NCBI GenBank assembly: GCA_014859225.1
Contig: JACUUP010000026.1
Span: 1-14,877, forward strand
Origin: Candidatus Aerophobota bacterium
Lineage (GTDB): Bacteria > Aerophobota > Aerophobia > Aerophobales > B3-G15
Length of the DNA: 14,877 nucleotides
Reading direction: 5' to 3'
In this document: positions 1-13,752 of the stretch, in pieces
Layout of the letters: each line of letters starts with the position of its first letter
Numbering within the stretch: the stretch's first letter is position 1
Notes under the pieces: model-generated
What the model saw: the letters and a program-made list of their open reading frames with translations, nothing else
Told to the model about the DNA's origin: nothing
The model's database searches: none
Position numbers and translations under genes: made by a program

Positions 1-2
1 TA

Positions 3-1034
3 TTGACGGTAAGTTTGTTTGCAGTGGGACTATTAGCTTCTCCCCTGCTTGCTCTTGCCTCCTCTCCTCCCTATCCCCAGGAAAGACCCCTGAAAGTGGC
101 GGTACTTGTGCCTGCCAGTGGGACTGACCAGGGCTGGAACCAGGCAGGAGTGGAAGGGGTGCTCTTACTCCAGGATAAGTGGCATCTCACTGTAGAGGTT
201 GGTGAAAACCTTGGATATGGTGATATCAGCCCGGTTCTTCGCGACCTTGCGGGAAAGGGGTTTGACCTTATTATTGCTCATGCCTCTGGATATCAGACAG
301 TTGCACCCGAGGTAGCAAAAGAAAGAGGTGTGCGGGTGGCAGTCGTGGAAAACCCGGATGGCGTTGTGCCCGGACTTGTATCCAGCTATGAAGGGAAAGC
401 CCAGGAAGGCGCTTATATGGCTGGCGTTATTGCGGCAATGATGACCAGGTCAAAAATCGTTGGAGTTGTTACTTCTGCTGAGGTGCCTGATTGGAATAGA
501 ATGACTGTAGGCTTCATGGAAGGACTTTATTCTGTAAATCCAAACATTAGATTCCTTTACGCTGTGATTGGTGAGGCAGCTTATGAGGATGCTGCTGGAG
601 CTAAACGCAATACCGAGGCGCAGATTGCTGCTGGTGCCGATGTCATTTTTGGCATGGGTAATGGAGCTACCTTTGGAATGATGAGTGCCTGTGAGGAAAA
701 TAGAGCAAGAGATGGAGGGAAGGTCTGGTTCATAGATGTTATTGGAGATAAATCAGAGATTGATACGGAAGGCATATTGTTAGGTTCGGTGCTGTGGAGA
801 TTTGATATTATTTATGAGATGATGCTCATTGATATTTATACGGGACACTTTGGCAAAAAATATTACCAGACACTGGAAAATCATGGTATAGAGCTGGCAG
901 TTTACCAGGACCTTCCGGGTGAAATTATAGCGGCAATAAGAGAAGCAGAAAAGGCAATTGTAAGTGGGAAGATAAAAGTTCCTGATATTCCTGGCACCCG
1001 GGAGATGAGAGACCACATGAGAAAACTTTTCTGA
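3..1034 (+). CDS. BMP-family (PnrA/Med-like) ABC transporter substrate-binding protein, 5' end probably cut by window
   Basis: Extracytoplasmic binding protein of a BMP-type ABC importer; the family binds nucleosides and similar small molecules and delivers them to the permeases encoded downstream. The first in-window start is TTG at position 3, but the reading frame is open to the left edge, so the true start and the positively charged n-region of the signal peptide are probably outside. Residues 3-20 form a hydrophobic core ending in a likely signal peptidase I site (ALA-SS). There is no lipobox cysteine, unlike the lipoprotein members of the family, so a soluble periplasmic protein is likely. 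Residues 30-51 (KVAVLVPASG, then DQGWNQAG..EG) match the conserved BMP N-terminal strand and ligand loop. GADVIFGMGNGA near 211-222 matches the later lobe. It is separated from the ATPase gene by 70 bases containing a hairpin. The substrate cannot be read from the sequence. Confidence 0.9.
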   Translation: MTVSLFAVGLLASPLLALASSPPYPQERPLKVAVLVPASGTDQGWNQAGVEGVLLLQDKWHLTVEVGENLGYGDISPVLRDLAGKGFDLIIAHASGYQTVAPEVAKERGVRVAVVENPDGVVPGLVSSYEGKAQEGAYMAGVIAAMMTRSKIVGVVTSAEVPDWNRMTVGFMEGLYSVNPNIRFLYAVIGEAAYEDAAGAKRNTEAQIAAGADVIFGMGNGATFGMMSACEENRARDGGKVWFIDVIGDKSEIDTEGILLGSVLWRFDIIYEMMLIDIYTGHFGKKYYQTLENHGIELAVYQDLPGEIIAAIREAEKAIVSGKIKVPDIPGTREMRDHMRKLF

Positions 1035-1046
1035 TAGAAAAATTCA

Positions 1047-1075
1047 GGGTGGGTGTTTTCTCAGGGCACCCACCC
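1047..1075 (+). other. Intergenic hairpin between binding-protein and ATPase genes
   Basis: GGGTGGGTG (1047-1055) pairs perfectly with CACCCACCC (1067-1075) across an 11-base loop. No T-run follows, so it does not look like a classical intrinsic terminator. By analogy with other binding-protein operons it may stabilise the upstream mRNA segment or attenuate transcription, so that the binding protein is made in excess over the membrane components (inference). Confidence 0.6.
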
Positions 1076-1104
1076 ACATTGTAGCATGAAAAGGTTACGA
1101 TAAA

Positions 1105-2670
1105 ATGAGTGAAATGAGAGAGACTGTTATTGAAATGAGAGGTATCACTAAAAGATTTCACGGATTGGTAGCTAATGATTGTATTGATTTTGATGTAAAA
1201 AGAGGCGAAATACATGCTCTTCTTGGAGAAAATGGTGCAGGGAAAACTACATTAATGAATATTCTATCGGGAATGTATCATGCTGATGAGGGTAAAGTGT
1301 ATGTGAGGGGAAAAGAGGTTACATTTCACTCTCCCCAGGAGGCTTTACGTTCAGGTATTGGAATGGTGTATCAGCATCTTACCTTAGTGCCTACTTTATC
1401 AGTTCGGGAAAATATTCTTCTCGGGACAAATAAAAAATTTGTTCTTCCTAAAAGAGATGTTGAGAAAAAAATAAAAGAAATTGCCAGAGAATATGAGATT
1501 AATGTAGAGCCTGGCGTGAAGGTGGGGCAATTATCTGCCGGCGAGCAGGAAAAAGTTGAAATTCTTAAGTTATTCTATCGGGGCTCAGAAATTCTTATTC
1601 TTGATGAGCCCACGTCGGTCTTGACGCCTTTAGAAGTTGATGATTTTTTTAAAATTCTGAAAATAACGAGCGATGCTGGAAAGTCCATCATTTTCATTAC
1701 TCATAAATTAGAGGAGGCGCTGAGTATAAGTGATAGAATAACTGTTTTAAGGCAGGGCAGGAAGGCAGGAGAAATTGACTTACAATCTTTCTCCCAGGAA
1801 ACAAAGTGCGAGATTCCTGAAACGATTGTAAAGATGATGTTTAAAGAAGCTGAATTTGTGGAAGAAATTGAAAATATAGCCTGCGATAAACCAAGCCTCT
1901 CTGATGAGGTTGTGTTAAATCTTGAGGATGTAACAGCTAAAAATGATAGAGGTGCACAGGCTTTAAAGAGAGTCTCCTTTTCTCTTCATAGAGGCGAAGT
2001 TTTGGGTATTGCTGGCGTGGATGGCAATGGTCAGAAAGAACTGGCAGAAGTTATTGTAGGGCAACGCAAAGTATCTTCAGGGAGAATTTTTCTTCAAGGG
2101 TGCGATATAACCAACATGCCTGTTAGGTTTATCAATGAGAGGGGTGTTTTTTATATCACTGATGATAGAATGAAGGAAGGGTGTGTAGGTAATTTTAGTC
2201 TGGCAGAAAACGCCATCTTTCGCTCCTACAAAAAAGAGCCCTTTTGCAAGAAAAAAGCCATCTTGCATATAGAGGCTATTGAAGCCCATGGTAACGAGCT
2301 AATTAAAAAATTCTCCATTAAAGCTTCAAATGCAAAAGTTATGGTAAGAACGCTATCGGGTGGAAATATTCAAAAATTAGTGGTAGCAAGAGAATTATCC
2401 CACAAACCGGTAGTTTTAGTTTGCAATAAACCAACGCATGGTCTGGATGTAATGACCACCCAATTTATCAGAAATGAGATAAGAAGGCAGAGCAGACAGG
2501 GTATCTCTGTGCTTTTAATTTCCTCAGACCTGGATGAGATAATGCAGGTAAGTGACCGCATAGGAGTTTTATTTAAAGGAGAGCTGCTGGATATTTTACC
2601 CAGGCAAAAAGCCACAAAGGAGAACATTGGAAGTTTAATGCTGGGATTAAAAAATAAGGTACAGGCATGA
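1105..2670 (+). CDS. BMP-type ABC transporter, tandem ATPase subunit
   Basis: A 521-residue cytoplasmic ATPase with two fused ABC domains that powers import through the two permeases that follow. NBD1 is complete: Walker A GENGAGKTT (41-49), Q-loop Q90, signature LSAGEQ (143-148), Walker B ILILDEPT with catalytic E168, and switch H200. NBD2 is degenerate: its P-loop is GVDGNGQKE (304-312) without GKT, it keeps signature LSGGN (417-421), its Walker B reads VCNKPT with the acidic pair replaced by N-K (441-442), and its switch position is S474. One-competent/one-degenerate pairing is normal for the sugar/BMP (CUT2-like) transporter class. ATG at 1105 is preceded by AAAAGG (1089-1094); an in-frame ATG at 1114 is an alternative start. 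The stop overlaps the next start (ATGA). Confidence 0.95.
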   Translation: MSEMRETVIEMRGITKRFHGLVANDCIDFDVKRGEIHALLGENGAGKTTLMNILSGMYHADEGKVYVRGKEVTFHSPQEALRSGIGMVYQHLTLVPTLSVRENILLGTNKKFVLPKRDVEKKIKEIAREYEINVEPGVKVGQLSAGEQEKVEILKLFYRGSEILILDEPTSVLTPLEVDDFFKILKITSDAGKSIIFITHKLEEALSISDRITVLRQGRKAGEIDLQSFSQETKCEIPETIVKMMFKEAEFVEEIENIACDKPSLSDEVVLNLEDVTAKNDRGAQALKRVSFSLHRGEVLGIAGVDGNGQKELAEVIVGQRKVSSGRIFLQGCDITNMPVRFINERGVFYITDDRMKEGCVGNFSLAENAIFRSYKKEPFCKKKAILHIEAIEAHGNELIKKFSIKASNAKVMVRTLSGGNIQKLVVARELSHKPVVLVCNKPTHGLDVMTTQFIRNEIRRQSRQGISVLLISSDLDEIMQVSDRIGVLFKGELLDILPRQKATKENIGSLMLGLKNKVQA

Positions 2671-3704
2671 AGTTAGGGATAGTTGTAAAAGCAGTGCTTG
2701 GGCCATTATTTGCTATTTTAGCCGCTTTACTCGTAGGCGGATTAATACTTTTTTTCATCGGATTAAACCCTTTCAGGACATATTTTGAGTTATTTAAGCT
2801 GGGTATGGGAACGCACCTTGGCATTACCGAATCACTGAAAAAAATGGCACCTCTTCTCATTATAAGTGCAGGATTGATAATTGTTTTCAAGGCAGGTATC
2901 TGGAATATAGGTGGCAATGGTCAGTTTTTAATAGGTGCAATTTTCGTAGGTGGCCTGGCTCCTTTATTGATAAATGGGTCTTCTCCCTACCTTTACTTTT
3001 TCCTTCTTGCTTTGATGGGATTTTTAGGTGGAGCACTCTGGATAGTTATTCCTGCCATATTAAAGGCAAAATACGAGATTAACGAGATTATTGTTACCAT
3101 GATGATGGATTTCGTTGCTCTCAACTTTACCGCTTTTTTAGTGAGAGGACCGTTAATTGCACATCCTGAGTATTTTCCCCAGACAAGACTTATCCCTGTA
3201 GGGCAAAGACTTCCCTTTATTCCCTTTACACGAATTCATATTGGTTTAATTGTTGGTTTAGCTGTAGTGATTTTAGCGCATTATTTTATGAAAAAAACAA
3301 CCTGGGGGTATGAGTTTAGACTTTTAGGGGAAAACAAAAAGGCAGCACAGTATGCGGGGGTGAATATAAAAAAAGTCACCATCATTGCCATGCTCATAAG
3401 TGGTGGATTCGCTGGTCTGGCTGGTGCAAATGATATCCTGGGGATTAAGGGCGCTTTTCAAGCGGAATGGAATCCCGGTTATGCTTTTTCAGCTATTCCG
3501 CTAGTCTTCCTGGCACGATTCAACGGAATTGCTGTTATTCCGCTTGCTTATTTTTTCTCTTTCCTGGCAATTGGAGGGGAATTTATGTCCCGGGCAGCAA
3601 ATGTTCCTGTATTTTTTGTCCAGGTACTAGAAGCTTTGATGCTCATATTTTTTGGTGTAACTGAATATATGCAGAAAAAGGGGAAACTATTTTGGAAATC
3701 TTAA
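2667..3704 (+). CDS. BMP-type ABC transporter permease 1
   Basis: A 345-residue integral inner-membrane permease of the BPD_transp_2 family, the first of a heterodimeric pair. It is strongly hydrophobic, with about 8-10 predicted spans beginning at residues 8-31. Family landmarks are IWNIGGNGQFLIGA (78-91), equivalent to the usual N-I-G-x-x-G-Q segment, and EINEIIVTMMMDFVA (137-151), equivalent to the N-E-x-I-x-T-x-M cytoplasmic loop that contacts the ATPase. The ATG overlaps the ATPase stop by four bases, so translation is coupled. The 3' end overlaps the next permease gene by 13 bases. Length and motifs match the larger permease of nucleoside-type importers; substrate is unassigned. Confidence 0.93.
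   Translation: MKLGIVVKAVLGPLFAILAALLVGGLILFFIGLNPFRTYFELFKLGMGTHLGITESLKKMAPLLIISAGLIIVFKAGIWNIGGNGQFLIGAIFVGGLAPLLINGSSPYLYFFLLALMGFLGGALWIVIPAILKAKYEINEIIVTMMMDFVALNFTAFLVRGPLIAHPEYFPQTRLIPVGQRLPFIPFTRIHIGLIVGLAVVILAHYFMKKTTWGYEFRLLGENKKAAQYAGVNIKKVTIIAMLISGGFAGLAGANDILGIKGAFQAEWNPGYAFSAIPLVFLARFNGIAVIPLAYFFSFLAIGGEFMSRAANVPVFFVQVLEALMLIFFGVTEYMQKKGKLFWKS
3676..3683 (+). promoter_or_regulatory. Ribosome binding site deciding a TTG start
   Basis: AAAAGGGG lies eight bases upstream of TTG 3692 and inside the end of the first permease gene. It supports the TTG as the true start of the second permease. Confidence 0.65.
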
Positions 3705-4630
3705 GGTCAATTCTTTCAGAGCCTTTTTTTGTAATTCTTCTGGGGGGAACCTTAACTGCCTCAATACCAATCATTCTGGCAGCAATAGGGGAAAGCCTGG
3801 TTGAAAAAGGAGGAGTACTAAACCTTGGTTTAGAGGGAGAGATGTTGATTGGGGCTTTTGTAGCTTTTGTGATTGCCTTGAATACGAGGAATCTTTTCTG
3901 GGGTCTATTTTCCGGTATAGCTGCTGGTCTATTGGTTGCATTAGCCTTTGGGTACCTGGTAATTTATTTGAAAGTTAACCAGATAGTTGCAGGTCTGGGT
4001 ATATGGATTTTTGGGATAGGGATTACCAGCCTCTTATTTAGAGTTTTTTTTGGGAGGAGGTTTCCCATTGCGCGAGGAATTACCTCAAAAACAGCTATTC
4101 CTTACCTGTCACAGATTCCTTACATACGGTCAGTTTTTAACCAGCATATAGTAGCTTACGTAGCTTTAGCTCTTATTCCCCTTGCCTGGTGGCTGCTCTA
4201 CAAAACTAACTTTGGTTTACACATAAGGGCGGTGGGAGAAAATCCTGTCGCCGCAGATGCTCACGGGGTCAACGTTTACAGAACAAGATACCTGACGGTG
4301 ATGCTGGAAGGTATCTTGGCTGGTCTGGCAGGAGCCTTTCTTTCTATATGCGATTTGTCTTTCTTTGTGGATAATATGACGTTAGGGCGCGGATTTATTG
4401 CCATCGGTATAGTGATGCTGGCTAACTGGAATCCTTCCCGCATATTTTACGGTGCTTTTTTGTTTGGAGTTTTTTATTCACTAACTTCTGGATTGCAGAT
4501 TGCGGGTGTAAATGTTCCACGCGAGTTTCTACTGATGCTTCCCTACGTTGCTGTAATTGTGGTTTTGTGTATTTTTGCCAGGAATACCCGTCTTCCTGCA
4601 GCCTTCTGCCTTCCGTATGAGAGGGAATAA
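3692..4630 (+). CDS. BMP-type ABC transporter permease 2
   Basis: A 312-residue integral membrane permease, the smaller partner of the BPD_transp_2 pair. Translation begins at TTG 3692, supported by AAAAGGGG at 3676-3683, and overlaps the first permease gene by 13 bases. Landmarks are GVLNLGLEGEMLIGA (41-55), the family's N-x-G-x-E-G-x-M loop, VNQIVAGLGIW near residues 93-105, and IRAVGENPVAADAHGVNV near 178-195, the conserved A-V-G-E-x-P-x-A-A-D cytoplasmic loop. About eight hydrophobic spans are visible. Thirteen bases separate it from the Mo-hydroxylase gene, which ties import to that enzyme in one transcript. Confidence 0.93.
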   Translation: MEILRSILSEPFFVILLGGTLTASIPIILAAIGESLVEKGGVLNLGLEGEMLIGAFVAFVIALNTRNLFWGLFSGIAAGLLVALAFGYLVIYLKVNQIVAGLGIWIFGIGITSLLFRVFFGRRFPIARGITSKTAIPYLSQIPYIRSVFNQHIVAYVALALIPLAWWLLYKTNFGLHIRAVGENPVAADAHGVNVYRTRYLTVMLEGILAGLAGAFLSICDLSFFVDNMTLGRGFIAIGIVMLANWNPSRIFYGAFLFGVFYSLTSGLQIAGVNVPREFLLMLPYVAVIVVLCIFARNTRLPAAFCLPYERE

Positions 4631-4643
4631 AAAGGATAAAACA

Positions 4644-6935
4644 ATGAGTGAGTTTTCCGTATTTGGCAAATCACTACCCCGGATTGATGCCTGGTCCAAA
4701 GCTACGGGAGAGGTAAAATACCTGGATGATATTAAAATACAGGGTATGCTATATGGAAAAATACTGCGCAGCCCTCATGCTCACGCAAAAATTGTGAGCA
4801 TTGACACCTTCGGTGCTAAAAAGCTTCCTGGAGTAAGAGCAGTAATTACGGCTGAGGATACCCCCGGGATAAAGTTTAGCTTTGTTCCTGCCCTGGCGGA
4901 TAAACTCCCTCTCTGCAAGGATAAGGTCAGGTATGTAGGGGATGAGGTAGCGGCGGTTGCTGCTGATAGTTTAGAGATTGCCGAGAAAGCTATTCAGCTC
5001 ATAAAGGCTGAGTATGAGATTCTCCCGGCTGTTTTTGATGTGGAAGAGGCTATGAAGCAGGATGCTCCCCTTATTCACGAGGAGCGAGAAAACAACATTG
5101 CCTTTGAAGGACATAAAAGTTTCGGTGATGTAGAAAAAGGTTTTAGAGAATCAGACTACATTTTTGAGGATAGGTGTGTTACCTCCAAAGTTACCCACTG
5201 TTGCATGGAAACACACGGCTGTATTGCCTTGTTTGACAAATTGGGAAAACTTACCATTTACTCTCCCCACCAGGCGCCTCATACTGTTCGCCAGGAGATG
5301 GCAAGAATTTTAGCTTTACCTTTATCCCGGGTAAGGGTAATTAGAACACCTGTGGGAGGTGGCTTTGGTCAAAGATTGGTTACCGACATGAAAGAACCAG
5401 TTGCTGCTATTCTTTCCCGTACAACAGGTAGAGCGGTAAAAATTGTAAATACAAGAGAGGAAGAATTTTGCACAGCTCGCACCCGCTATCCCTACATAAT
5501 TTACCTTAAAACTGGTGTGCGCAAAGATGGAAAAATTTTAGCCCGCCAGGCAAAGGTAATAGTGGACAATGGTGCCTATAATGATAAAGGACCTTCTACT
5601 TTAAATTATGCCGGGGAATGTTTTGCTGTTTTATATAATGTGCCACATATACAGTATGATGGGTGGGGAGTTTATACTAATAAACAGTTCGGGACCGCCT
5701 TTCGCGGATTTGGAAATCCCCAACTTCATTTTGCTACGGAAACGCAGCTGGATGCCATCGCTAAAAAGCTACATATAGACCCGCAGCAACTTCGCTTGAA
5801 GTATGCCAACATGCCAGGGGACGTAGCTGCCTCTGGTGCTAAAATTACCAGTTGCGGTCTTGTGGAGTGTATCAATAAGGCAGCAGAGAGTTCTCGCTGG
5901 AAGGAGAAAAGAAAAGAACCAGTGGATATGGGTGATGGAAAATGCCGGGGTATTGGCATGGCAGCTATGGTGCATACAGGGGGAGGAGGAAGGTTTTACG
6001 GATATGCTGCCACGGATACCTTTGTCAAGATTTCTGAGGAGGGGAAAGTAACGGTAATATCTCCAGCTCCGGAAATTGGTCAGGGAGCAACGATGGTGAT
6101 AGCTCAAATAACAGCCGAAGTGTTGGGTATACGTCCGGACAACATTACGGTAATTAATGATGATACAGAAATTATGCCCTATGACCTCGGAGCGTGGGGA
6201 AGCAGGACCTCTTTTGTCTGTGGAAATGCGGCTAAGTCTGCTGCCGAGAATACACGAGAAGAGGTTATAAAGGTAGCCGCTCAGATGTTGCAAAGACCTG
6301 CAGAGAGGCTCGGGTGTAGAGAGGGTAAGGTTTTTTTAAAAGATAATCCTGAGGTAGCTGTATTTTTTGAAGAGGTCGCCGGGTACGCTATTAGCAAGAT
6401 AGGGCATCCTCTCTCAGGCAGGGGTAGATACTTTGACCCTTTAGCTCCTCAGGTGGGACTTGATAGAAAGTACGGACACCATCTTCCCACTTTTGCTTTT
6501 GCCTGTCAGGTCGTGGAGGTGGAGGTGGATACCTTAACCGGCCAGGTGAAGGTGCTAAAGGTGACAGCAGCTCATGATACAGGAAGAACCATTAATCCTT
6601 CTATGGCAGAAGGACAGATAGAGGGCTCCATTCTCCAGGGACTCGGTTATGCTCTTTCTGAGGAATGCGTAGAAAAAGATGGAATTTTGATGAATCCTAA
6701 TTTTGCTGATTATAAAATATGGACAGCTCTGGATACCCCTTCTTATGAAGTGATTCTGGTAGAAAGCATTGACCCGGATGGTCCTTTTGGAGCAAAGGGA
6801 ATTGGCGAGCCAGGGCTTGTCCCTTTGCCAGCAGCCGTAGCTAATGCGATTTTCCATGCAACAGGTGTTATGTTTAGACAGCTTCCCTTGAATCAGGAGA
6901 GAGTCTTTTTTGGATTAAGAGAGGCTAAAAAATAA
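4644..6935 (+). CDS. Xanthine dehydrogenase-family molybdopterin-binding (large) subunit
   Basis: A 763-residue catalytic subunit of a molybdenum hydroxylase that would insert a water-derived oxygen into an aldehyde or N-heterocycle. ATG 4644 is chosen because AAAGGA (4631-4636) sits seven bases upstream and MSEFSVFGKSLPRIDAWSKATG is the usual family N-terminus; the frame is open further upstream but overlaps the permease. Visible motifs: GGGFGQ (238-243), FRGFGNPQ with R354 at the place of the substrate-orienting arginine of xanthine dehydrogenase, EIGQGA (477-482), GSRTSF (519-524), and GAKGIGEPG with E722 as the expected catalytic base. The residue after GGGFGQR is leucine (L245), where bovine xanthine dehydrogenase has a purine-binding glutamate, so xanthine need not be the substrate. 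Its FAD and FeS partners are encoded over 3 kb downstream instead of next to it. Confidence 0.93.
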   Translation: MSEFSVFGKSLPRIDAWSKATGEVKYLDDIKIQGMLYGKILRSPHAHAKIVSIDTFGAKKLPGVRAVITAEDTPGIKFSFVPALADKLPLCKDKVRYVGDEVAAVAADSLEIAEKAIQLIKAEYEILPAVFDVEEAMKQDAPLIHEERENNIAFEGHKSFGDVEKGFRESDYIFEDRCVTSKVTHCCMETHGCIALFDKLGKLTIYSPHQAPHTVRQEMARILALPLSRVRVIRTPVGGGFGQRLVTDMKEPVAAILSRTTGRAVKIVNTREEEFCTARTRYPYIIYLKTGVRKDGKILARQAKVIVDNGAYNDKGPSTLNYAGECFAVLYNVPHIQYDGWGVYTNKQFGTAFRGFGNPQLHFATETQLDAIAKKLHIDPQQLRLKYANMPGDVAASGAKITSCGLVECINKAAESSRWKEKRKEPVDMGDGKCRGIGMAAMVHTGGGGRFYGYAATDTFVKISEEGKVTVISPAPEIGQGATMVIAQITAEVLGIRPDNITVINDDTEIMPYDLGAWGSRTSFVCGNAAKSAAENTREEVIKVAAQMLQRPAERLGCREGKVFLKDNPEVAVFFEEVAGYAISKIGHPLSGRGRYFDPLAPQVGLDRKYGHHLPTFAFACQVVEVEVDTLTGQVKVLKVTAAHDTGRTINPSMAEGQIEGSILQGLGYALSEECVEKDGILMNPNFADYKIWTALDTPSYEVILVESIDPDGPFGAKGIGEPGLVPLPAAVANAIFHATGVMFRQLPLNQERVFFGLREAKK

Positions 6936-8131
6936 TGCCCTTAAACTTCGCTTTATTAGAAACTGAATCTATAAAGAGAAAAGATTATCTCGTAAAATGG
7001 AGACGCCTTTTTCACCAGCATCCTGAGGTAGGTTTAGATGTGCCTTTTGCCAGAGATGTTATTATTACACATTTACATGAAATAGGTTTGGCGAGGGCAT
7101 ATCGCTCTCTAAAGGCCGGTATAATTGTTGAGCTTTCAGGGGGAAACAGGGACCTTTCCTCCACAGTAGCTTTTCGGGTAGATATGGATGCTTTGCCTCT
7201 TAAGGAAAAAACAAACCTGCCTTATGCTTCTTCCATGGAAGGATGTATGCACGGCTGTGGACATGATGCTCATACGGCAATTGGGCTGGGCGTGATAGAT
7301 GTTTTGCACAGCTTGAAAGATACGTGGAAGGGGGCAGTGCGGGTAATTTTTCAATCAGGCGAGGAAGTGCTTCAAGGGGCAAAGCTCATGCTAACAGAAG
7401 GTGCCTTGAATAATCCTGGGGTAGTTGCTCTTTTAGGATGCCACATAGAACCCAAAATAGCTCTGGGAAGTGTGGGGTTAAAATCTGGACAGATTAATGC
7501 CTACACCGATGAGTTTCATCTATTCATCAAGGGAAAATCAACTCATGGAGCATCTCCACATCTCGGGTGTGACCCTGTGGTTGCAGCTTCATTTGCTATT
7601 CAGGCTTTACAAACTATAGTTTCTCGCAGTATTTCTCCGTTAGAATCCGCTGTAATCTCCATTGGCGAGATAAAGGGGGGAAGTGTATCTAACGTTATTC
7701 CCGATGAGGTCAAAGTAAAGGGGACTATTCGCAGTTTAAATTCAAAGACAAGAGATTTGATTTTTCTTAGAATGAGCTCTATCCTGAGTGGTCTGGAGAC
7801 CTGTTTTGATGTTCAGACTGAGATTGTTTTTACCGCTAACTCTCCTCCAGTTATTTGTGATGAGAAGTTAACCAGAAGATGTTTTGAAATGATAAAAGAG
7901 GTTGTAGGTGAAGAGAAGGTAATAAATCTTAGCGTGCCTCAACTGGGGGGAGATGATTTTGCCTTTTTTGCTCAAAAAGTGCCAGCTACTATGATAAGAT
8001 TGGGGTGCGGGAAAGAGAATTATACCTTTCCTCTACACAGTTCACATTTCAACTTTGATGAAGAGGTTATGGTGATGGGTGTAGCTTTGTTTTCTTATCT
8101 ACTTACTCATTTGGCGCTACCCACAACGTAG
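6935..8131 (+). CDS. M20-family metallo-amidohydrolase (HipO/aminoacylase-like)
   Basis: A 398-residue cytosolic dinuclear-metal amidohydrolase. The subfamily hydrolyses N-acyl amino acids and related amides. The metal ligands of the Cys-containing subfamily are present: C108 and H110 in MHGCGHDAHTA, E144 in QSGEE (with E143 as general base), H170 in GCHIEP, and H368 in LHSSHF. The lid/dimerisation domain (about 183-300) contains GKSTHGASPH and the SNVIPDEVKVKGTIRS segment typical of the family. The start overlaps the upstream stop by one base (TAATG), with GAGAGG at 6919-6924 as ribosome site. It lacks the features that would call it allantoate amidohydrolase specifically. Its position inside the hydroxylase operon suggests that it acts on a ring-opened or amide intermediate (inference). 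Confidence 0.92.
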   Translation: MPLNFALLETESIKRKDYLVKWRRLFHQHPEVGLDVPFARDVIITHLHEIGLARAYRSLKAGIIVELSGGNRDLSSTVAFRVDMDALPLKEKTNLPYASSMEGCMHGCGHDAHTAIGLGVIDVLHSLKDTWKGAVRVIFQSGEEVLQGAKLMLTEGALNNPGVVALLGCHIEPKIALGSVGLKSGQINAYTDEFHLFIKGKSTHGASPHLGCDPVVAASFAIQALQTIVSRSISPLESAVISIGEIKGGSVSNVIPDEVKVKGTIRSLNSKTRDLIFLRMSSILSGLETCFDVQTEIVFTANSPPVICDEKLTRRCFEMIKEVVGEEKVINLSVPQLGGDDFAFFAQKVPATMIRLGCGKENYTFPLHSSHFNFDEEVMVMGVALFSYLLTHLALPTT

Positions 8132-8171: not shown

Positions 8172-8846
8172 ATGCAAAAAAAAGAGCACATCAAAATTTT
8201 TTTAGGTGTCATGGTCATGGGGTCAATATGGGGAATGCTGGAGGCGAGTTTAGGAAGCGTCCTTCACATAATTCACTTTCCTTACAAGGGAGAGGTAATG
8301 GCAAACATCGGTTTTTTCTTAATGGGATGGGCATTGGTTCGTTACAAGAAAATCTGGATTCCTGCGGGTATGGCTCTTATCGCCGCCTCCTTTAAAATTC
8401 TAAATGTAGCCATTGTAGGTGTCCCCCTAACGAATAGAATGATTGTCAATCCCGCTATGGCCATAATCTTAGAAGGTTTGATTTTGGTGGGAGTGGTGGG
8501 GATAGCTCATAAAGTATACGAGAAAAATATTTTATATCGCTCGGCAGCAGGTTTTGCCGGAATGTTTTTATCCTACCTGACCTTTTCTTTTGTTTTCTTT
8601 TACGTTTTCCGTCAAGGTCCTATGGAGATTGTCAGTATGGGCGAGCTTGCCTTTTTTACTTTGAGAAATGGGGGACTTGCAAGCATGCTCGCTTTATTTT
8701 CCTTCCCCTCAGGTATGTGGGCAGGAAGGATGAGTACATTTGAATGTAGCTCAGCTAAAAATGAGCAGAAACTGTACTATACTACCTCACTACTGGTTAT
8801 CAGTTGTTGCTGGCTGATTAGTGCTGTTTTTATTGTTCTTGTATGA
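8172..8846 (+). CDS. Polytopic membrane protein of unknown function (possible transporter S-component-like)
   Basis: A 224-residue integral membrane protein that I do not recognise. Hydrophobic stretches lie at about residues 8-31, 43-57, 62-83, 93-113, 126-147, 158-184 and 201-223, giving roughly seven spans. The loop WGMLEASLGSVLHIIHFPYKG (20-40) contains a G-x-x-E-x-x-L-G and a P-x-x-G, and NPAMAIILEG (93-102) buries a glutamate; these are candidate ligand-binding features. Size and topology resemble substrate-binding S components of ECF transporters, but no energising subunits are present and the resemblance is only by eye. ATG 8172 is chosen from the AGGAG at 8161-8165. Its stop overlaps the NTPase start (ATGA), so the two are translationally coupled. 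Confidence 0.8.
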   Translation: MQKKEHIKIFLGVMVMGSIWGMLEASLGSVLHIIHFPYKGEVMANIGFFLMGWALVRYKKIWIPAGMALIAASFKILNVAIVGVPLTNRMIVNPAMAIILEGLILVGVVGIAHKVYEKNILYRSAAGFAGMFLSYLTFSFVFFYVFRQGPMEIVSMGELAFFTLRNGGLASMLALFSFPSGMWAGRMSTFECSSAKNEQKLYYTTSLLVISCCWLISAVFIVLV

Positions 8847-9337
8847 ATAAGATTTTTTTAACCGGGAAAACGGGTGTAGGCAAAAGCCTCATCATTGAGC
8901 ACATTTTGCAAAAAACCTCTCTTTCCTTTGGTGGTTTTCAAACAAAAGCCTGCTGGAGGAAGGGAAAAATAATAGGGTTCAACATTATTGACCTTGCAAC
9001 CACCAAGGAAAAGGTAATTGCTGCCTTTGGGGAAAAGCAAATTATTGTTGATATAGAGGGATTTGAGGTGTTAGGAGTAGATGCTATTAGCAGAGCGCTC
9101 AAGGAAAAAAAGTTGGTGGTAATGGATGAGCTTGGTTTTATGGAACGAAACGCTCCTCTTTTTCAAAGTAAGGTCTGGGAGGCTCTTCGTAGCGATAAAG
9201 CTGTTTTAGGGGTGCTCAAGATGCACACAAATGATTTTCTTGACAGGATTAGAGACTGCAGTTTTATTAGGGTATTAGAAGTTAGCGAGAACATGAAAGA
9301 GGCAATACAAAAAGAGCTTGTACAGGTATTTACATGA
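8843..9337 (+). CDS. THEP1-like P-loop nucleoside-triphosphatase
   Basis: A 164-residue soluble P-loop NTPase resembling the NTPase_1/THEP1 family, whose members hydrolyse NTPs with broad base preference and whose cellular role is largely unknown. Walker A is GKTGVGKS (8-15). GGFQTKACWRKGKIIGFNIID (30-50) matches the family's G-F-x-T segment and following beta hairpin. Walker B is VVMDELGFME (92-101) with D95 and E96, followed by the family-style F-x-x-x-V-W-E-A-L helix. Length is typical. It overlaps both neighbours by ATGA junctions. MobB-type GTP-binding proteins, which serve molybdenum-cofactor synthesis, are an alternative relative to consider given the context; the D-E-x-G-x-M-E signature favours THEP1. 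Confidence 0.82.
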   Translation: MNKIFLTGKTGVGKSLIIEHILQKTSLSFGGFQTKACWRKGKIIGFNIIDLATTKEKVIAAFGEKQIIVDIEGFEVLGVDAISRALKEKKLVVMDELGFMERNAPLFQSKVWEALRSDKAVLGVLKMHTNDFLDRIRDCSFIRVLEVSENMKEAIQKELVQVFT

Positions 9338-10092
9338 TTGTAGATGAACTTGTTAACAAGATAAAGAAAAGGGCAAAGGAAAGAAAAATTCTTGAGGTTT
9401 GCATCGGGGTGAAGTATACAGGAGTTCTTCTGGATGATGGGAGCCTGGGTCTTGCTGCTACTTTGCCTCATCAGCTTCCCCATAGATGTGAGTCTTTCCA
9501 GGATATTGTGGGAAAACCCTCTATGGAGGCAGCTAAAATGGTTTTTTCTCCCCACCTTCTTCCTTCGGTGGTGGGTGCAGCCACAATAAATGCCTTGCTT
9601 TTGCCCGAGGCTGAATTTGAAGCTGTTAGCGGTGATATCCTTGATTTGTTACCCATCTCGGGTAAGGATACTGTAGGTATGGTAGGAGCTTTCTTACCGT
9701 TACTTCCTTCTTTGCGAAAAAAAACGAGGAACATTTATGTTTTTGAACGCTTGCCTGTGGATGGAGTAAAAGAGTACTATCCTGATTGGGCTGAGCCTGT
9801 TTATCTTCCCCGATGCTCTATTGTCATTATCAGTGGGACAACGGTGGTTAATAAGACAATTGACCAGGTTTTATCGTATCTTAATCCCTCACAGACTTTT
9901 GGCCTGGTAGGTCCTACTACTCCCCTTGCTCCTCCTGTTTTTTCCCGATACGGGCTGAGCTTTCTTTCCGGGGTGAGGATAAAAGATTCTGCAAAAATTA
10001 TGAATATAATAAAGCAGGCAGGGGGAACAAAAGATTTCGGGGAAAATGCACAAAAAGTAAACTACTTTCTTAAATGTTCGGGGAGATTTTGA
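9334..10092 (+). CDS. DUF4213/DUF364 family protein (putative heavy-metal chelation)
   Basis: A 252-residue cytosolic protein matching the two-domain family with an enolase-N-like DUF4213 head and a DUF364 body, annotated in databases as a putative heavy-metal-chelation domain; no biochemical role is firmly established. The head covers about residues 1-90, with EVCIGVKYTGVLLDDGSLGLA (21-41). The DUF364 part runs from about 108. It includes PRCSIVIISGTTVVNKTIDQVL (159-180) and GLVGPTTPLAPPVF (190-203), corresponding to the family's I-I-T-G-T-x-x-x-N-x-T and G-P-S-T-P segments. The ATG overlaps the NTPase stop, and its stop shares a base with the FAD subunit start (TGATG). Sitting directly before the FAD and FeS subunit genes suggests a role in assembling or metal-loading the hydroxylase (inference). 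Confidence 0.83.
   Translation: MIVDELVNKIKKRAKERKILEVCIGVKYTGVLLDDGSLGLAATLPHQLPHRCESFQDIVGKPSMEAAKMVFSPHLLPSVVGAATINALLLPEAEFEAVSGDILDLLPISGKDTVGMVGAFLPLLPSLRKKTRNIYVFERLPVDGVKEYYPDWAEPVYLPRCSIVIISGTTVVNKTIDQVLSYLNPSQTFGLVGPTTPLAPPVFSRYGLSFLSGVRIKDSAKIMNIIKQAGGTKDFGENAQKVNYFLKCSGRF
10080..10085 (+). promoter_or_regulatory. Ribosome binding site deciding the FAD-subunit start
   Basis: GGGGAG lies six bases before ATG 10092, inside the end of the DUF364 gene. It argues for 10092 over the upstream in-frame ATG at 10074. Confidence 0.65.
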
Positions 10093-10982
10093 TGTTGACC
10101 AGGCTAAAAAAATTTGACTACCTCAAGCCTCCTACCCTCGGCGAGGCGCTTGAGATTTTGGAAAGGTATGACGGACAGGTAAAAGTTCTTGCTGGTGGCA
10201 CGGACCTTTTCGTGGGGATGAAGGAAAAAGAGATATCTCCTAAATACGTACTTGATATCAAGGGTACAGGAGAGCTAAACTACATTACCTATGATAGCCG
10301 GGAAGGATTGAAAATAGGAGCACTGACCAGTATTCGGACCGTAGAGATATCTTCTTTGATTAAAGAACATTTTCCTTTTCTTTCATCTGCTGCTGGAGCT
10401 CTTGGTTCTTTGCAGGTTAGAAATAAAGCAACGATGGGGGGCAATTTATGCAATGCTGCTCCTTCTGCAGAAACTGCTCCTGCTCTTTTGTGTCTTGATG
10501 CTCGGGTAAAAATTGTATCCCTGAGGGGAGAAAGGGTTATTTTGCTGAAGGATTTTTTTCAGGGACCGGGAATGACCACGCTTGAGCGGGAAATTCTTGT
10601 AGAGATACAGATTCCTCCCCTGAAGAGAAAGGGTATATATATAAAACACAGTCCCCGGCGGGCTATGGATATTGCAGTGGTAGGTGCAGCAGTAGCAGTT
10701 AACGAGGATAGTGAAGGTAGGTGGCATGAGGTAAGGATTGCTCTTGGGGCAGTAGCCCCTGTTCCTTTGCGGGCGCAAAGAGCAGAACGGGTTTTAGAGG
10801 GCAAAAGGGTGGATATGCAGCTAATAAAAGAGGCAGCCAGGCTGGCACAAAAAGAGGCAAGTCCTATTTCTGATGTACGGGCAAGCGCTGAGTATAGACG
10901 GGAAATGGTGCAGGTTTTAGTTCAAAGAGCCCTGCAAAGTATCGCAGGGTGTGAATTTGTTGAACTGGAGGAAGATGTATGA
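10092..10982 (+). CDS. Molybdenum hydroxylase FAD-binding (medium) subunit
   Basis: A 296-residue subunit of the CoxM/XdhB type, passing electrons from the FeS clusters via FAD to the final acceptor. The N-terminal FAD_binding_5 domain shows VLAGGTDLFVGMK (32-44), whose A-G-G-T-D-L loop binds the FAD pyrophosphate. TMGGNLCNAAPSAETAPALL (114-133) is the second FAD-binding loop. The C-terminal CO_deh_flav_C domain begins near residue 178 and ends with the usual ASAEYRREMV (264-273). ATG 10092 is favoured by GGGGAG at 10080-10085 and by the one-base overlap TGATG with the DUF364 stop. The stop overlaps the FeS subunit start by four bases. The length is normal for the family. Confidence 0.93.
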   Translation: MLTRLKKFDYLKPPTLGEALEILERYDGQVKVLAGGTDLFVGMKEKEISPKYVLDIKGTGELNYITYDSREGLKIGALTSIRTVEISSLIKEHFPFLSSAAGALGSLQVRNKATMGGNLCNAAPSAETAPALLCLDARVKIVSLRGERVILLKDFFQGPGMTTLEREILVEIQIPPLKRKGIYIKHSPRRAMDIAVVGAAVAVNEDSEGRWHEVRIALGAVAPVPLRAQRAERVLEGKRVDMQLIKEAARLAQKEASPISDVRASAEYRREMVQVLVQRALQSIAGCEFVELEEDV

Positions 10983-11437
10983 AGATGAGCATAAGCTTAA
11001 AGGTTAATGATGAGGAATATCAACTTGAGGTGGAACCGCAAGAACTTTTACTGGATGTAATCAGGCATAGACTTAATCTTACTGGCACCAAGAGAGGCTG
11101 TGATACGGGTGATTGTGGAGCCTGTACTGTTATTATGGATGGTAGAGCTGTTAATTCCTGTCTTATTTTAGCAGTGGAAGCTGATAAAAAAGAAATTATC
11201 ACTATAGAGGGTCTGAGTAAAACAGGGCAGCTTCATCCTCTCCAGAAGTCTTTTGTGGAACATGGGGCTATACAGTGTGGATTTTGTTCTCCGGGAATGA
11301 TTATGTCGGCAAAAGCTTTGCTTGATGAGAATCCTCATCCCTCAGATGAGGAAATTAGAAAAGCTATTGCGGGAAATCTTTGCCGTTGCACGGGTTATGC
11401 AAAAATTATAGAGGCTATTAAATCTTTATGTACGTAA
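10979..11437 (+). CDS. Molybdenum hydroxylase [2Fe-2S] (small) subunit
   Basis: A 152-residue CoxS/XdhC-type iron-sulphur subunit carrying two [2Fe-2S] clusters that relay electrons from the molybdenum site to FAD. The N-terminal plant-ferredoxin-like cluster has all four cysteines: C41, C46, C49 and C61. The C-terminal helical domain cluster has C100, C103, C135 and C137 in QCGFCSPGM and NLCRCTGY. All eight ligands are intact, so the subunit should be functional. GGAGGA (10967-10972) sits six bases before ATG 10979; a second in-frame ATG at 10985 is possible. The start overlaps the FAD-subunit stop (ATGA), ensuring equal synthesis of the two electron-transfer subunits. Confidence 0.95.
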   Translation: MKMSISLKVNDEEYQLEVEPQELLLDVIRHRLNLTGTKRGCDTGDCGACTVIMDGRAVNSCLILAVEADKKEIITIEGLSKTGQLHPLQKSFVEHGAIQCGFCSPGMIMSAKALLDENPHPSDEEIRKAIAGNLCRCTGYAKIIEAIKSLCT

Positions 11438-11444
11438 AAACTTC

Positions 11445-12014
11445 ATGCAAAAAGAAAAAATAAGAAGAATCATAGTAGCTCTTAGCGGAGCAAGTGGGGC
11501 AATTTATGGAATTAGATTACTGGAGGCTCTACAAAGAATAAAAATAGAGACTCATCTTATTATCAGCAGGTGGGCTGAGGTTACCATTAAGATGGAGACA
11601 GGGTATCTTGTAGAAGAAGTGCAAAAACTTGCCACCTATTCTTACTCGCCAGATAATTTAACTGCCCCCTGTGCCAGTGGCTCTTTTTTAACCGAGGGCA
11701 TGGTGATTGTTCCCTGCAGTATGAAAACTCTTGCCGCTATTGCCTGCGGATATGTGGATAACCTGGTTTCCCGAGCTGCTGATATAACCATGAAGGAAGG
11801 TAGAAAACTTATTCTCGTTCCCCGGGAGGCTCCTTTTAATGCTATTCACCTGGAAAATATGCTCAAGCTTTGCCGCTTGGGGGTTGTCATTATCCCTCCT
11901 GTTCCAGCTTTTTATATAAAGCCCTCTACCATTGATGATTTAATTAACCACACTGTAGGCAAAGTGCTGGACGGCTTGGGTATTGACAATGAGCTTTATG
12001 AAAGATGGAAATAA
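11445..12014 (+). CDS. ubiX: UbiX/Pad1-family flavin prenyltransferase
   Basis: A 189-residue cytosolic flavoprotein that attaches a dimethylallyl unit to FMN to make prenylated FMN, the cofactor of UbiD-type decarboxylases. Motifs match the family closely: ALSGASGAIYG (12-22) at the FMN phosphate site, ASGSF (77-81), VIVPCSMKTLAAIACGYVDN (87-106), SRAADITMKEGR (109-120), and LVPREAPFNAIHLENM (124-139), which holds the conserved PRE. Full length for the family. It begins seven bases after the FeS subunit stop but lacks an obvious Shine-Dalgarno sequence, so its expression may depend on coupling. No ubiD gene is present in the window, so the decarboxylase it would serve must be encoded elsewhere. 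UbiX paralogues with other flavin roles are an alternative. Confidence 0.92.
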   Translation: MQKEKIRRIIVALSGASGAIYGIRLLEALQRIKIETHLIISRWAEVTIKMETGYLVEEVQKLATYSYSPDNLTAPCASGSFLTEGMVIVPCSMKTLAAIACGYVDNLVSRAADITMKEGRKLILVPREAPFNAIHLENMLKLCRLGVVIIPPVPAFYIKPSTIDDLINHTVGKVLDGLGIDNELYERWK

Positions 12015-12064: not shown

Positions 12065-12697
12065 TTGCTGTGTGCAGTTCTTTTAGCGGCAGGTGAGTCA
12101 AAGAGGATGGGTAGCTTAAAGGCGCTTTTACCTTTGTTTTTTGAAGAATCTGGAGAATCTAAAGGAAAGGATACATTTTTATCTTTTATTTTAAAAAATC
12201 TCCATTCTGTGTGCGAGGAGACTATACTTGTTCTGGGATATAAAGCAGATTTAATTGAAAACAAAATAGTTGATTTAAACTTAAAAACAAAAATTATTAT
12301 TAACAGGGAGTACAAAAAGGGACAGCTTTGTTCCTTAAGAGTGAATATAAAAAAAGTTTCGCCAGATTGTGAAGGAATTATGCTGACTCTGGTAGACCAT
12401 CCCTTAGTCAACAAAAAGACCTACAGGCTGTTAAAAGAAAAATTTTCCCGGGAAAAAGACAAAATCATTATTCCCGCTTATAAAGGGAAATGGGGACATC
12501 CGGTGATTTTTAGCTCTTTGTTTTTCCCGGATTTAATGAAAGCTCCTTTAAATCAAGGGGCAAGATATGTGGTGAAAAGTTATTCTGAAAAAATTACCCT
12601 TTTACCCGTGGAAGATAAAGGGGTAATCCTTAACATAGACACGCCGGAAAACTACCAAAAATTTTGTTCTTACACAAGTTTAAAGAGGTTACATTAA
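12065..12697 (+). CDS. mocA: MocA-like molybdenum cofactor nucleotidyltransferase
   Basis: A 210-residue nucleotidyltransferase (NTP_transf_3) that would join a nucleotide to Mo-molybdopterin. MocA enzymes add CMP to make the molybdopterin cytosine dinucleotide used by this hydroxylase class. The N-terminal loop LLAAGESKRMGSLK (6-19) carries the L-A-A-G form associated with CTP-using MocA, not the L-A-G-G form of GTP-using MobA. Other landmarks: KGQLCSLR (85-92), LVDHPLV (109-115) with metal-binding D111, GHPVIF (144-149), and NIDTPENY (190-197). TTG 12065 is supported by GAGGG at 12054-12058. It is followed after two bases by xdhC, its usual maturation partner. A relaxed or different nucleotide specificity cannot be excluded. 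Confidence 0.87.
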   Translation: MLCAVLLAAGESKRMGSLKALLPLFFEESGESKGKDTFLSFILKNLHSVCEETILVLGYKADLIENKIVDLNLKTKIIINREYKKGQLCSLRVNIKKVSPDCEGIMLTLVDHPLVNKKTYRLLKEKFSREKDKIIIPAYKGKWGHPVIFSSLFFPDLMKAPLNQGARYVVKSYSEKITLLPVEDKGVILNIDTPENYQKFCSYTSLKRLH

Positions 12698-12699
12698 AT

Positions 12700-13752
12700 A
12701 TGGGTATTTTTGGAGACATCTATAAGCTACTTTCTTCTGGTAAAGCTGTAGCTCTGGTAACTGTGGTGCATACTGAGGGTAGTACACCTCAGGTTCCTGG
12801 AGCTGTAATGGCGGTGAATAAGGATGGAACTATTGCAGGAACTGTAGGAGGAGGGAATGTGGAAAGGTTGATAATTGAAGATGCAGTTTCATCCCTGCAA
12901 GAAGGTCATCCAGCACTAAAAACGTATATCCTCAGCGAGAAGGAAGATACAAAAATGGTTTGTGGTGGCAGGATGCAGGTATTTATTGAGCCTCTAAAAA
13001 AAAGGACGAGGTTATGTAAGCTTGTAGATGATGAGGCTTGCCTGGGAAAAAGATCTGTGCTGTCCTTTGTCGTTTCAGGTAAAAACATCCCTCCCTCTTT
13101 TATCGGCAGGAAGATGCTTGTAACCTCTGGTGGTGTTGCTACCGGGAAGATGAGTATGGGGAAAATAGATGAGTTAGCTATCAAGGAGGCTTCAAAAGCA
13201 CTTAAAGAAAATATTTCCTACCTAAAAACGTATCCCCTGGAGGAGGACAAAGAGGTTAGCATTTTTTTCCAGGTTGTTCCAGGAACGGAAACTTTGGTCA
13301 TTGCTGGAGCAGGACATATAGCCAGCTCCCTTGTGAAGATGGCAAGAGTGCTGGATTTCAGGGTAGTTGTGGTGGATGACCGCGAGGACTACGCCAAAAG
13401 GTCGCGTTTTCCCTTGGCTGATAAAATTATATGTGGAGATTTTAAGAAGGTATTTTCCAGTATGTATCTTAACGAGAAATCTTATGTAGTTGTAGTCACC
13501 TATGGGCATAAGCACGATGAGGAGGTTCTGGAAGAGGTGCTAAAGTCAAAGGCTGGCTATATCGGATGTATTGGCAGCAGACTAAAAGCTGAAAAAACTC
13601 TCTATTATTTAAAAAGCGCTGGGTACTCTGACGAAGATGTCAAAAGAGTTCACATCCCTGTAGGACTTCATATCGGAGCAAAAACACCAGCGGAGATAGC
13701 TTTATCCATCCTGGCACAGATAATTAAGGAAAAAAGAAAGATGAGCTCATGA
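12700..13752 (+). CDS. xdhC: XdhC-family molybdenum hydroxylase maturation factor
   Basis: A 350-residue cytosolic chaperone. XdhC proteins bind the molybdenum cofactor, help exchange an oxo for a sulfido ligand, and insert the cofactor into the large subunit. The N-terminal XdhC/CoxI domain shows HTEGSTPQVPGAVM (24-37), GTVGGGNVE (47-55) and MVCGGRMQVF (86-95), including the conserved cysteine C88. The C-terminal Rossmann domain shows VIAGAGHIA (200-208), VVDDRE (224-229), VVTYGHKHDEEVL (265-277), YIGCIGSRLKAEK (287-299) and HIGAKTPAEIALSILAQII (324-342). ATG 12700 is preferred over an in-frame ATG at 12664 because the latter lies deep in the upstream gene; AGAGG (12684-12688) is upstream. 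The stop falls within a 13-bp sequence repeated in the downstream transposase gene. Confidence 0.93.
   Translation: MGIFGDIYKLLSSGKAVALVTVVHTEGSTPQVPGAVMAVNKDGTIAGTVGGGNVERLIIEDAVSSLQEGHPALKTYILSEKEDTKMVCGGRMQVFIEPLKKRTRLCKLVDDEACLGKRSVLSFVVSGKNIPPSFIGRKMLVTSGGVATGKMSMGKIDELAIKEASKALKENISYLKTYPLEEDKEVSIFFQVVPGTETLVIAGAGHIASSLVKMARVLDFRVVVVDDREDYAKRSRFPLADKIICGDFKKVFSSMYLNEKSYVVVVTYGHKHDEEVLEEVLKSKAGYIGCIGSRLKAEKTLYYLKSAGYSDEDVKRVHIPVGLHIGAKTPAEIALSILAQIIKEKRKMSS

Follow-up and report, generated by a model that had tools for sequence, protein, structure and literature searches.

A trio of genes in a molybdenum hydroxylase operon of Candidatus Aerophobota as a candidate salvage importer of molybdopterin-type cofactor

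Gene content of the hydroxylase operon

The window analyzed here is the whole of a 14,877-base contig (G000:C77) from a 1.8-Mb draft genome (91% complete) of a Candidatus Aerophobota bacterium, and its operon genes lie on the + strand throughout. A nucleoside-type ABC importer (1-4630, + strand), named from a reading of the translations (ABC, BMP), precedes the gene for the large, Moco-binding subunit of a Mo hydroxylase of the XDH family (4641..6935), in which both the GQG loop and the catalytic Glu (GIGEP) are kept. The FAD subunit (10092..10982, with an alternative start at 10074) and the 2x[2Fe-2S] subunit (10979..11437) are encoded further downstream. All three were assigned by Pfam/NCBIfam, and the large subunit with its Moco domains, the FAD and 2Fe-2S subunits and the catalytic Glu together identify an XDH-family Mo hydroxylase, although none of the subunits reached an NCBIfam equivalog cut-off that would name the substrate. 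These genes are followed by a UbiX-type flavin prenyltransferase (11445-12014), a MocA-like molybdopterin cytidylyltransferase (12065..12697; TIGR03310, E 2.9e-42, below the model's cut-off), an XdhC-family Moco insertion chaperone (12664..13752; Pfam/NCBIfam) and, downstream of XdhC, a REP-type transposase named from its translation. UbiX is likewise part of the hydroxylase operon in the sister genome G003 (L133), and no UbiD gene is present in the window; the position of UbiX in the operon hints at an aromatic substrate for the hydroxylase.

Three further genes lie between the large subunit and the FAD and FeS subunits, as the original prediction had stated, but the gene of an M20-family amidohydrolase (6935-8131), which it omitted, is found there too, between those of the large subunit and the membrane protein. 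This amidohydrolase gene overlaps the stop codon of the large subunit. The first gene of the trio encodes a seven-helix membrane protein (8172..8846), which resembles ECF S components in its AlphaFold model, carries the motifs of its family and is putatively molybdopterin- or Moco-binding; its best start is the ATG at 8172, preceded by AAAGGAG. The second encodes a THEP1-family NTPase (8843..9337; Pfam NTPase_1, PF03266, E 7.8e-33, residues 3-159) with the Walker A motif GKTGVGKS and the Walker B motif LVVMDELGFME. The third (9334..10092) encodes a protein with both a DUF4213 (E 1.9e-18) and a DUF364 domain (PF04016, E 1.8e-40), for which NCBIfam has no model and which has solved-structure relatives in 3NPG and 3L5O. 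The identities predicted for the NTPase and the DUF364 protein were confirmed by these matches, and the four junctions by which the trio had been said to be translationally coupled to the hydroxylase subunits are exact (ATGA 8843-8846, ATGA 9334-9337, TGATG 10090-10094 and ATGA 10979-10982).

Family, predicted fold and neighbors of the membrane protein

In line with the prediction of a seven-span protein of unknown family, the AlphaFold model has seven helices and the protein falls into no Pfam or NCBIfam family: the Pfam search returned nothing significant (best DUF7470, E 0.07, below cut-off), NCBIfam holds no model for it, and in neither database did the protein or its partners match the ModABC, WtpABC or TupABC families. 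A protein search of 61 genomes recovered two distant relatives, and the alignment of these with the window protein (A1) was used for wider searches, in which family members were found in 31 of 386 genomes and at 38 loci in a set of named genomes. The hosts comprise Acetothermia, Dehalococcoidia, Thermoplasmata, Methanomassiliicoccales, Altiarchaeota, Acholeplasma and other Mollicutes, Hydrothermota, Zixibacteria and Aerophobetes; no plasmid relatives were found. The closest relative is an Acetothermia protein (L071, about 40% identity), with which the window protein pairs in the tree (support 99/95), and a separate contig of the same Acetothermia genome carries an XDH next to genes of a nucleoside ABC system (L137). 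Sequences within the family differ greatly (about 20-30% identity); GS[IL]WGxxE is kept across them in helix 1, with GSxWGxxE invariant, and a VNPAMAI motif precedes helix 4 of the window protein. Near this helix (window 8445-8475) the AOR-linked (archaeal) members carry CxICSAxAI, whereas the XDH-linked members carry NPxxAI, which, judging from the sequences, is a possible switch in specificity for the metal or the form of the cofactor.

The AlphaFold (AF2) model of the window protein, built with 32 sequences, has a pLDDT of 91.7 and a pTM of 0.90. When it was compared with the PDB, four different ECF S components were among the top six structures, namely 5EDL as the best match (Z 13.0), TmRibU (10.2), PanT (9.7) and CbiM (8.1); Foldseek alone also placed 5EDL first (E 0.05). 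Since helical bundles attain such Z values, as pMMO subunit C did with 11.8, the assignment also draws on the genetics, i.e., the ABC and EcfT neighbors, and with this caution the predicted fold is that of an S component. Three relatives (L066, L064 and L054) adjoin a tandem ECF-type ABC ATPase and an EcfT-like protein. The order in L066 is NTPase_1, membrane protein, tandem ABC ATPase, CbiQ/EcfT and TonB receptor, and its EcfT-like protein matches CbiQ (E 4e-14). Moreover, the membrane domain and NTPase_1 form one protein in two genomes (L056 and L061), and in L061 the DUF364 gene overlaps the fusion gene. Profile comparison backed the T-like domain in L054 and was marginal for that in L055. 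No EcfT/EcfA pair is present in the window, and the only CbiQ match of its genome lies within a Ni/Co-type cluster.

The fused proteins vary in architecture. Those at L056:8429-10057 and L061:8319-10019 join an S-like domain, a further membrane domain and a THEP1 NTPase, while that at L055:5963-6967 joins a T-like membrane domain to a THEP1 NTPase. T-like middle domains had been considered for the fusions L056, L060 and L061, and profile comparison gave them no support. In two genomes of one family (L062:6085-8865 and L063:8326-10980), an S-like domain and a TonB-dependent receptor share a single frame of ~900 residues, as if inner- and outer-membrane parts had been fused or were read through.

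The neighborhoods of 71 relatives, out to 6 kb, were typed with phmmer using seeds from the same loci, and since these seeds were chosen post hoc the figures are descriptive. A Mo/W enzyme or cofactor marker was present at 49 of 71 loci; it was also present in 2 of 20 control regions, each time as a generic NTP-transferase match. XDH, AOR, Mo-oxidoreductase or FdhC genes were present at 29 loci and in none of the 20 controls, and NTPase_1 at 30 loci (adjacent or fused in 22) and again in no control, while fourteen loci had none of these markers. Two unrelated genomes, G306 (L053, with MocA) and a member of the Hydrothermota (L100), have the exact trio along with XDH subunits and XdhC, and in Mollicutes the order is MocA-FAD-FeS-XDH-membrane-XdhC-NTPase, without DUF364. 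As the trio recurs with XDH in two unrelated genomes, and the pair of membrane protein and NTPase_1 in many more, the arrangement is more than chance. Co-occurrence with XDH subunits was observed in L053, L100 and Mollicutes, but family members also adjoin tungsten AORs, formate dehydrogenases, TonB receptors and ECF T/ABC subunits without any hydroxylase. Furthermore, a similar XDH operon followed by UbiX lacks the trio in the sister genome G003, indicating that the trio is not strictly required for the maturation of this type of enzyme, and the notion of a hydroxylase-specific module did not survive these observations. Genes for ModE-like HTH regulators, TonB receptors and WtpABC were found near some copies. 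In 30 sources, neither a Moco riboswitch nor any other regulatory RNA was found close to the genes.

In the archaeal branch a membrane-anchored protein is encoded directly upstream of the S-like gene (13 aligned, A6). Its AF2 model (pLDDT 86) displays the pterin-binding fold of PruR (Foldseek E 4e-4) and that of the Moco domain in sulfite oxidase (VIA Z up to 14.3), and an Aerophobetes neighbor matches PF00174, a molybdopterin-binding oxidoreductase domain (E 5e-19). Small anchored proteins of the PruR/sulfite-oxidase fold were seen upstream in archaea and in some bacteria (L078:9564-10001, L103:5358-5789 and others).

Cofactor synthesis genes in carrier genomes

Genomes with the membrane gene were surveyed for MoaA (PF06463), MoaC, MoaE, MoeA, ModA and XDH (PF20256), and genomes without it for MoaC, ModA and XDH; the searches for MoaA, MoaC, MoaE and MoeA work, as they gave matches in 11 of 14 well-known genomes that served as positive control. 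The genome sets were modest and non-random, and contamination of MAGs is possible for single cases. Among 40 carriers MoaC was found in 9, MoaA in the same 9, MoaE in 5, MoeA in 12 and ModA in 2, while the 39 non-carriers had MoaC in 24 and ModA in 13. MoaA and MoaC are thus both missing in 31 of the 40 carriers, many of them 95-100% complete, so that molybdopterin could not be made there by the known route. An XDH-type hydroxylase is nevertheless encoded in 20 of these 31 genomes compared to 0 of 15 MoaC-negative non-carriers (Fisher p 1.7e-5; about 7e-4 after rough grouping into lineages), and in further carriers without Moa genes the membrane gene has genes for AOR or formate dehydrogenase next to it. 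Likewise, of two genomes of the same genus, the carrier G306 has XDH and the non-carrier G019 does not. All genomes tested for MoaC that had an XDH-type hydroxylase and no MoaC carry the membrane gene, G003 being outside this test. The XDHs beside the membrane gene that were examined keep the catalytic Glu and the GQG Moco loop and are therefore not Moco-free relics; degenerate hydroxylases as the cause of the missing moa genes were rejected for these proteins. MobA/MocA, by contrast with the mostly missing MoaE and MoeA, is often present in carriers, a pattern consistent with uptake of molybdopterin or metal-molybdopterin, to which the nucleotide would then be attached in the cell.

Mollicutes and relatives (L077, L079, L080, L093, L098 and L106) encode XDH-family hydroxylases, often two, without MoaA, MoaC, MoaE or MoeA; Mollicutes have been reported to lack Mo use (PMC6147048).

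The window's own genome differs from most carriers. It encodes MoaA beside AOR and TupABC (L131), MoaC with a MOSC protein and MogA (L130), and MoeA (L132), while searches of this 91% complete draft found neither MoaE nor ModA. The organism thus probably makes at least the precursor and, with MoaA, MoaC, MogA, MoeA and TupABC at hand, has no obvious need for salvage. The trio would here be a supplementary salvage system, or, should MoaE really be lacking, the only way past the MoaE step.

Proposed cofactor import, its alternatives and known systems

One paper gives as the prevailing view that cells requiring Moco must make it, and describes its passage across membranes as unknown (PMC9793310). 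Several hundred genomes with molybdoenzymes, no complete Moco pathway and, in most cases, no known Mo transporters were left unexplained in a 2018 survey (PMC6147048). We consider it somewhat probable that the trio is a salvage importer of a molybdopterin-type cofactor with THEP1 and DUF364 helpers, and it is from the predicted fold, the Mo/W context, the partners and the absence of MoaA and MoaC that we infer transport, its exact substrate and the roles of the two helpers. The trio would then be the cofactor-supply part of the operon, in which the membrane protein would act as the S component of an ECF-type importer for molybdopterin or Mo-/W-molybdopterin, the NTPase would use ATP for a step linked to the import or the processing of the cofactor, and the DUF364 protein, where present, may handle pterin or metal inside the cell. 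MocA would add CMP, and XdhC would pass the completed cofactor on to the hydroxylase. Import would replace de novo Moco synthesis in most relatives and supplement it in the window genome. The sequence of uptake, NTP-driven step and carrier put forward in the original prediction agrees in outline with the S-component model and the Mo/W-enzyme context, but the presumed carrier, DUF364, is optional (4 of 72 loci of the family). THEP1 is known to hydrolyze ATP and GTP slowly, and the fold nearest to it is that of cob(I)alamin adenosyltransferase (PMC1079890). A THEP1 kinase was considered as a trapping step, and the authors of the THEP1 structure argue against a kinase role. For DUF364, a crystal structure led to the proposal of a flavin or pterin ligand, and the family neighbors Mo/W transport (PMC2954201).

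The predicted acquisition of a metal or cofactor holds as an idea, with the absence of MoaA and MoaC from most carriers, the presence of WtpABC right beside the gene in one of them and the pterin-binding fold of an extracytoplasmic partner pointing to a pterin cofactor rather than bare metal. An S component that imports molybdate, tungstate or a metal chelate (e.g., a metallophore complex) for ordinary Moco synthesis is unlikely, if still deserving of attention: ModA is missing in 38 of 40 carriers, DUF364 has been linked to Mo/W transport (PMC2954201), and the ModE-like regulators, TonB receptors and WtpABC beside some copies suit metal uptake also. However, the 31 carriers without MoaA or MoaC could not use the metal, the window genome already has TupABC, and the archaeal partner has a pterin-binding fold. 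In G271 a complete WtpABC lies beside the S-ABC-T cluster, yet no Moa genes are found, so that the oxyanion already has an importer there. Free Moco is oxygen-labile, which counts against its import.

Import of an early pterin precursor (cyclic pyranopterin monophosphate or a simple pterin), to be completed inside the cell, would be in keeping with the MoaD/MoeB-like genes that some carriers, such as L040, have next to the membrane gene and AOR, but it appears improbable: with no MoaE in 35 of the 40 carriers and no MoeA in 28, completion by the known route is unlikely in most of them. About as improbable, finally, is a maturation or electron-transfer factor that acts on the FAD/FeS subunits without transport, toward which the original prediction leaned. 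In its favor, the trio overlaps tightly with the FAD and FeS genes of the window and is closely linked in L053 and L100, whereas the occurrence of the family with AOR, FDH, TonB and ECF genes in the absence of any hydroxylase, the G003 operon without the trio and the S-component fold of the membrane protein argue against it.

Whether S component and THEP1, joined by DUF364 or a PruR-like protein, constitute the first dedicated importer of Mo/W cofactor, enable many bacteria and archaea to use molybdo- and tungstoenzymes without cofactor synthesis of their own and thereby explain the "orphan molybdoprotein" genomes seems to us evenly balanced; no earlier report of a prokaryotic Moco importer was found within the literature searched. 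If cofactor import is true, the module would account for such genomes without Moco synthesis, Moco would be a shared good in anaerobic communities, and roles would be available for THEP1 and DUF364, two long-uncharacterized families.

Among known systems, ECF transporters share with the proposed module the logic of cofactor and vitamin salvage, the predicted fold of their S components (YkoE-type 5EDL, RibU 5KBW, PanT 4RFS, CbiM 5X3X) and, in some relatives, an adjacent tandem ABC ATPase and EcfT. Unlike the known S components, however, the membrane protein has no sequence family match, a Moco-enzyme context, a recurrent THEP1 NTPase partner and an extra C-terminal helix, and unlike in ECF systems no EcfT/EcfA pair accompanies it in the window. 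The window NTPase has PF03266, Walker A and the DExG Walker B in common with THEP1/NTPase_1 proteins (1YE8, 2I3B), which are without an assigned role, whereas NTPases of the window type recur with, or fused to, the S-like protein. Similarly, the full DUF4213+DUF364 two-domain architecture is shared with 3NPG and 3L5O, but the gene in the window is translationally linked to those of a transporter-like protein and a Mo hydroxylase. The periplasmic pterin-binding protein PruR has its fold in common with the anchored archaeal partner, which is not encoded in the window. ModABC, WtpABC and TupABC serve Mo/W enzymes, as the proposed module would, but they are oxyanion importers whose proteins are unrelated to the trio, even though WtpABC adjoins the ECF-type set in G271.
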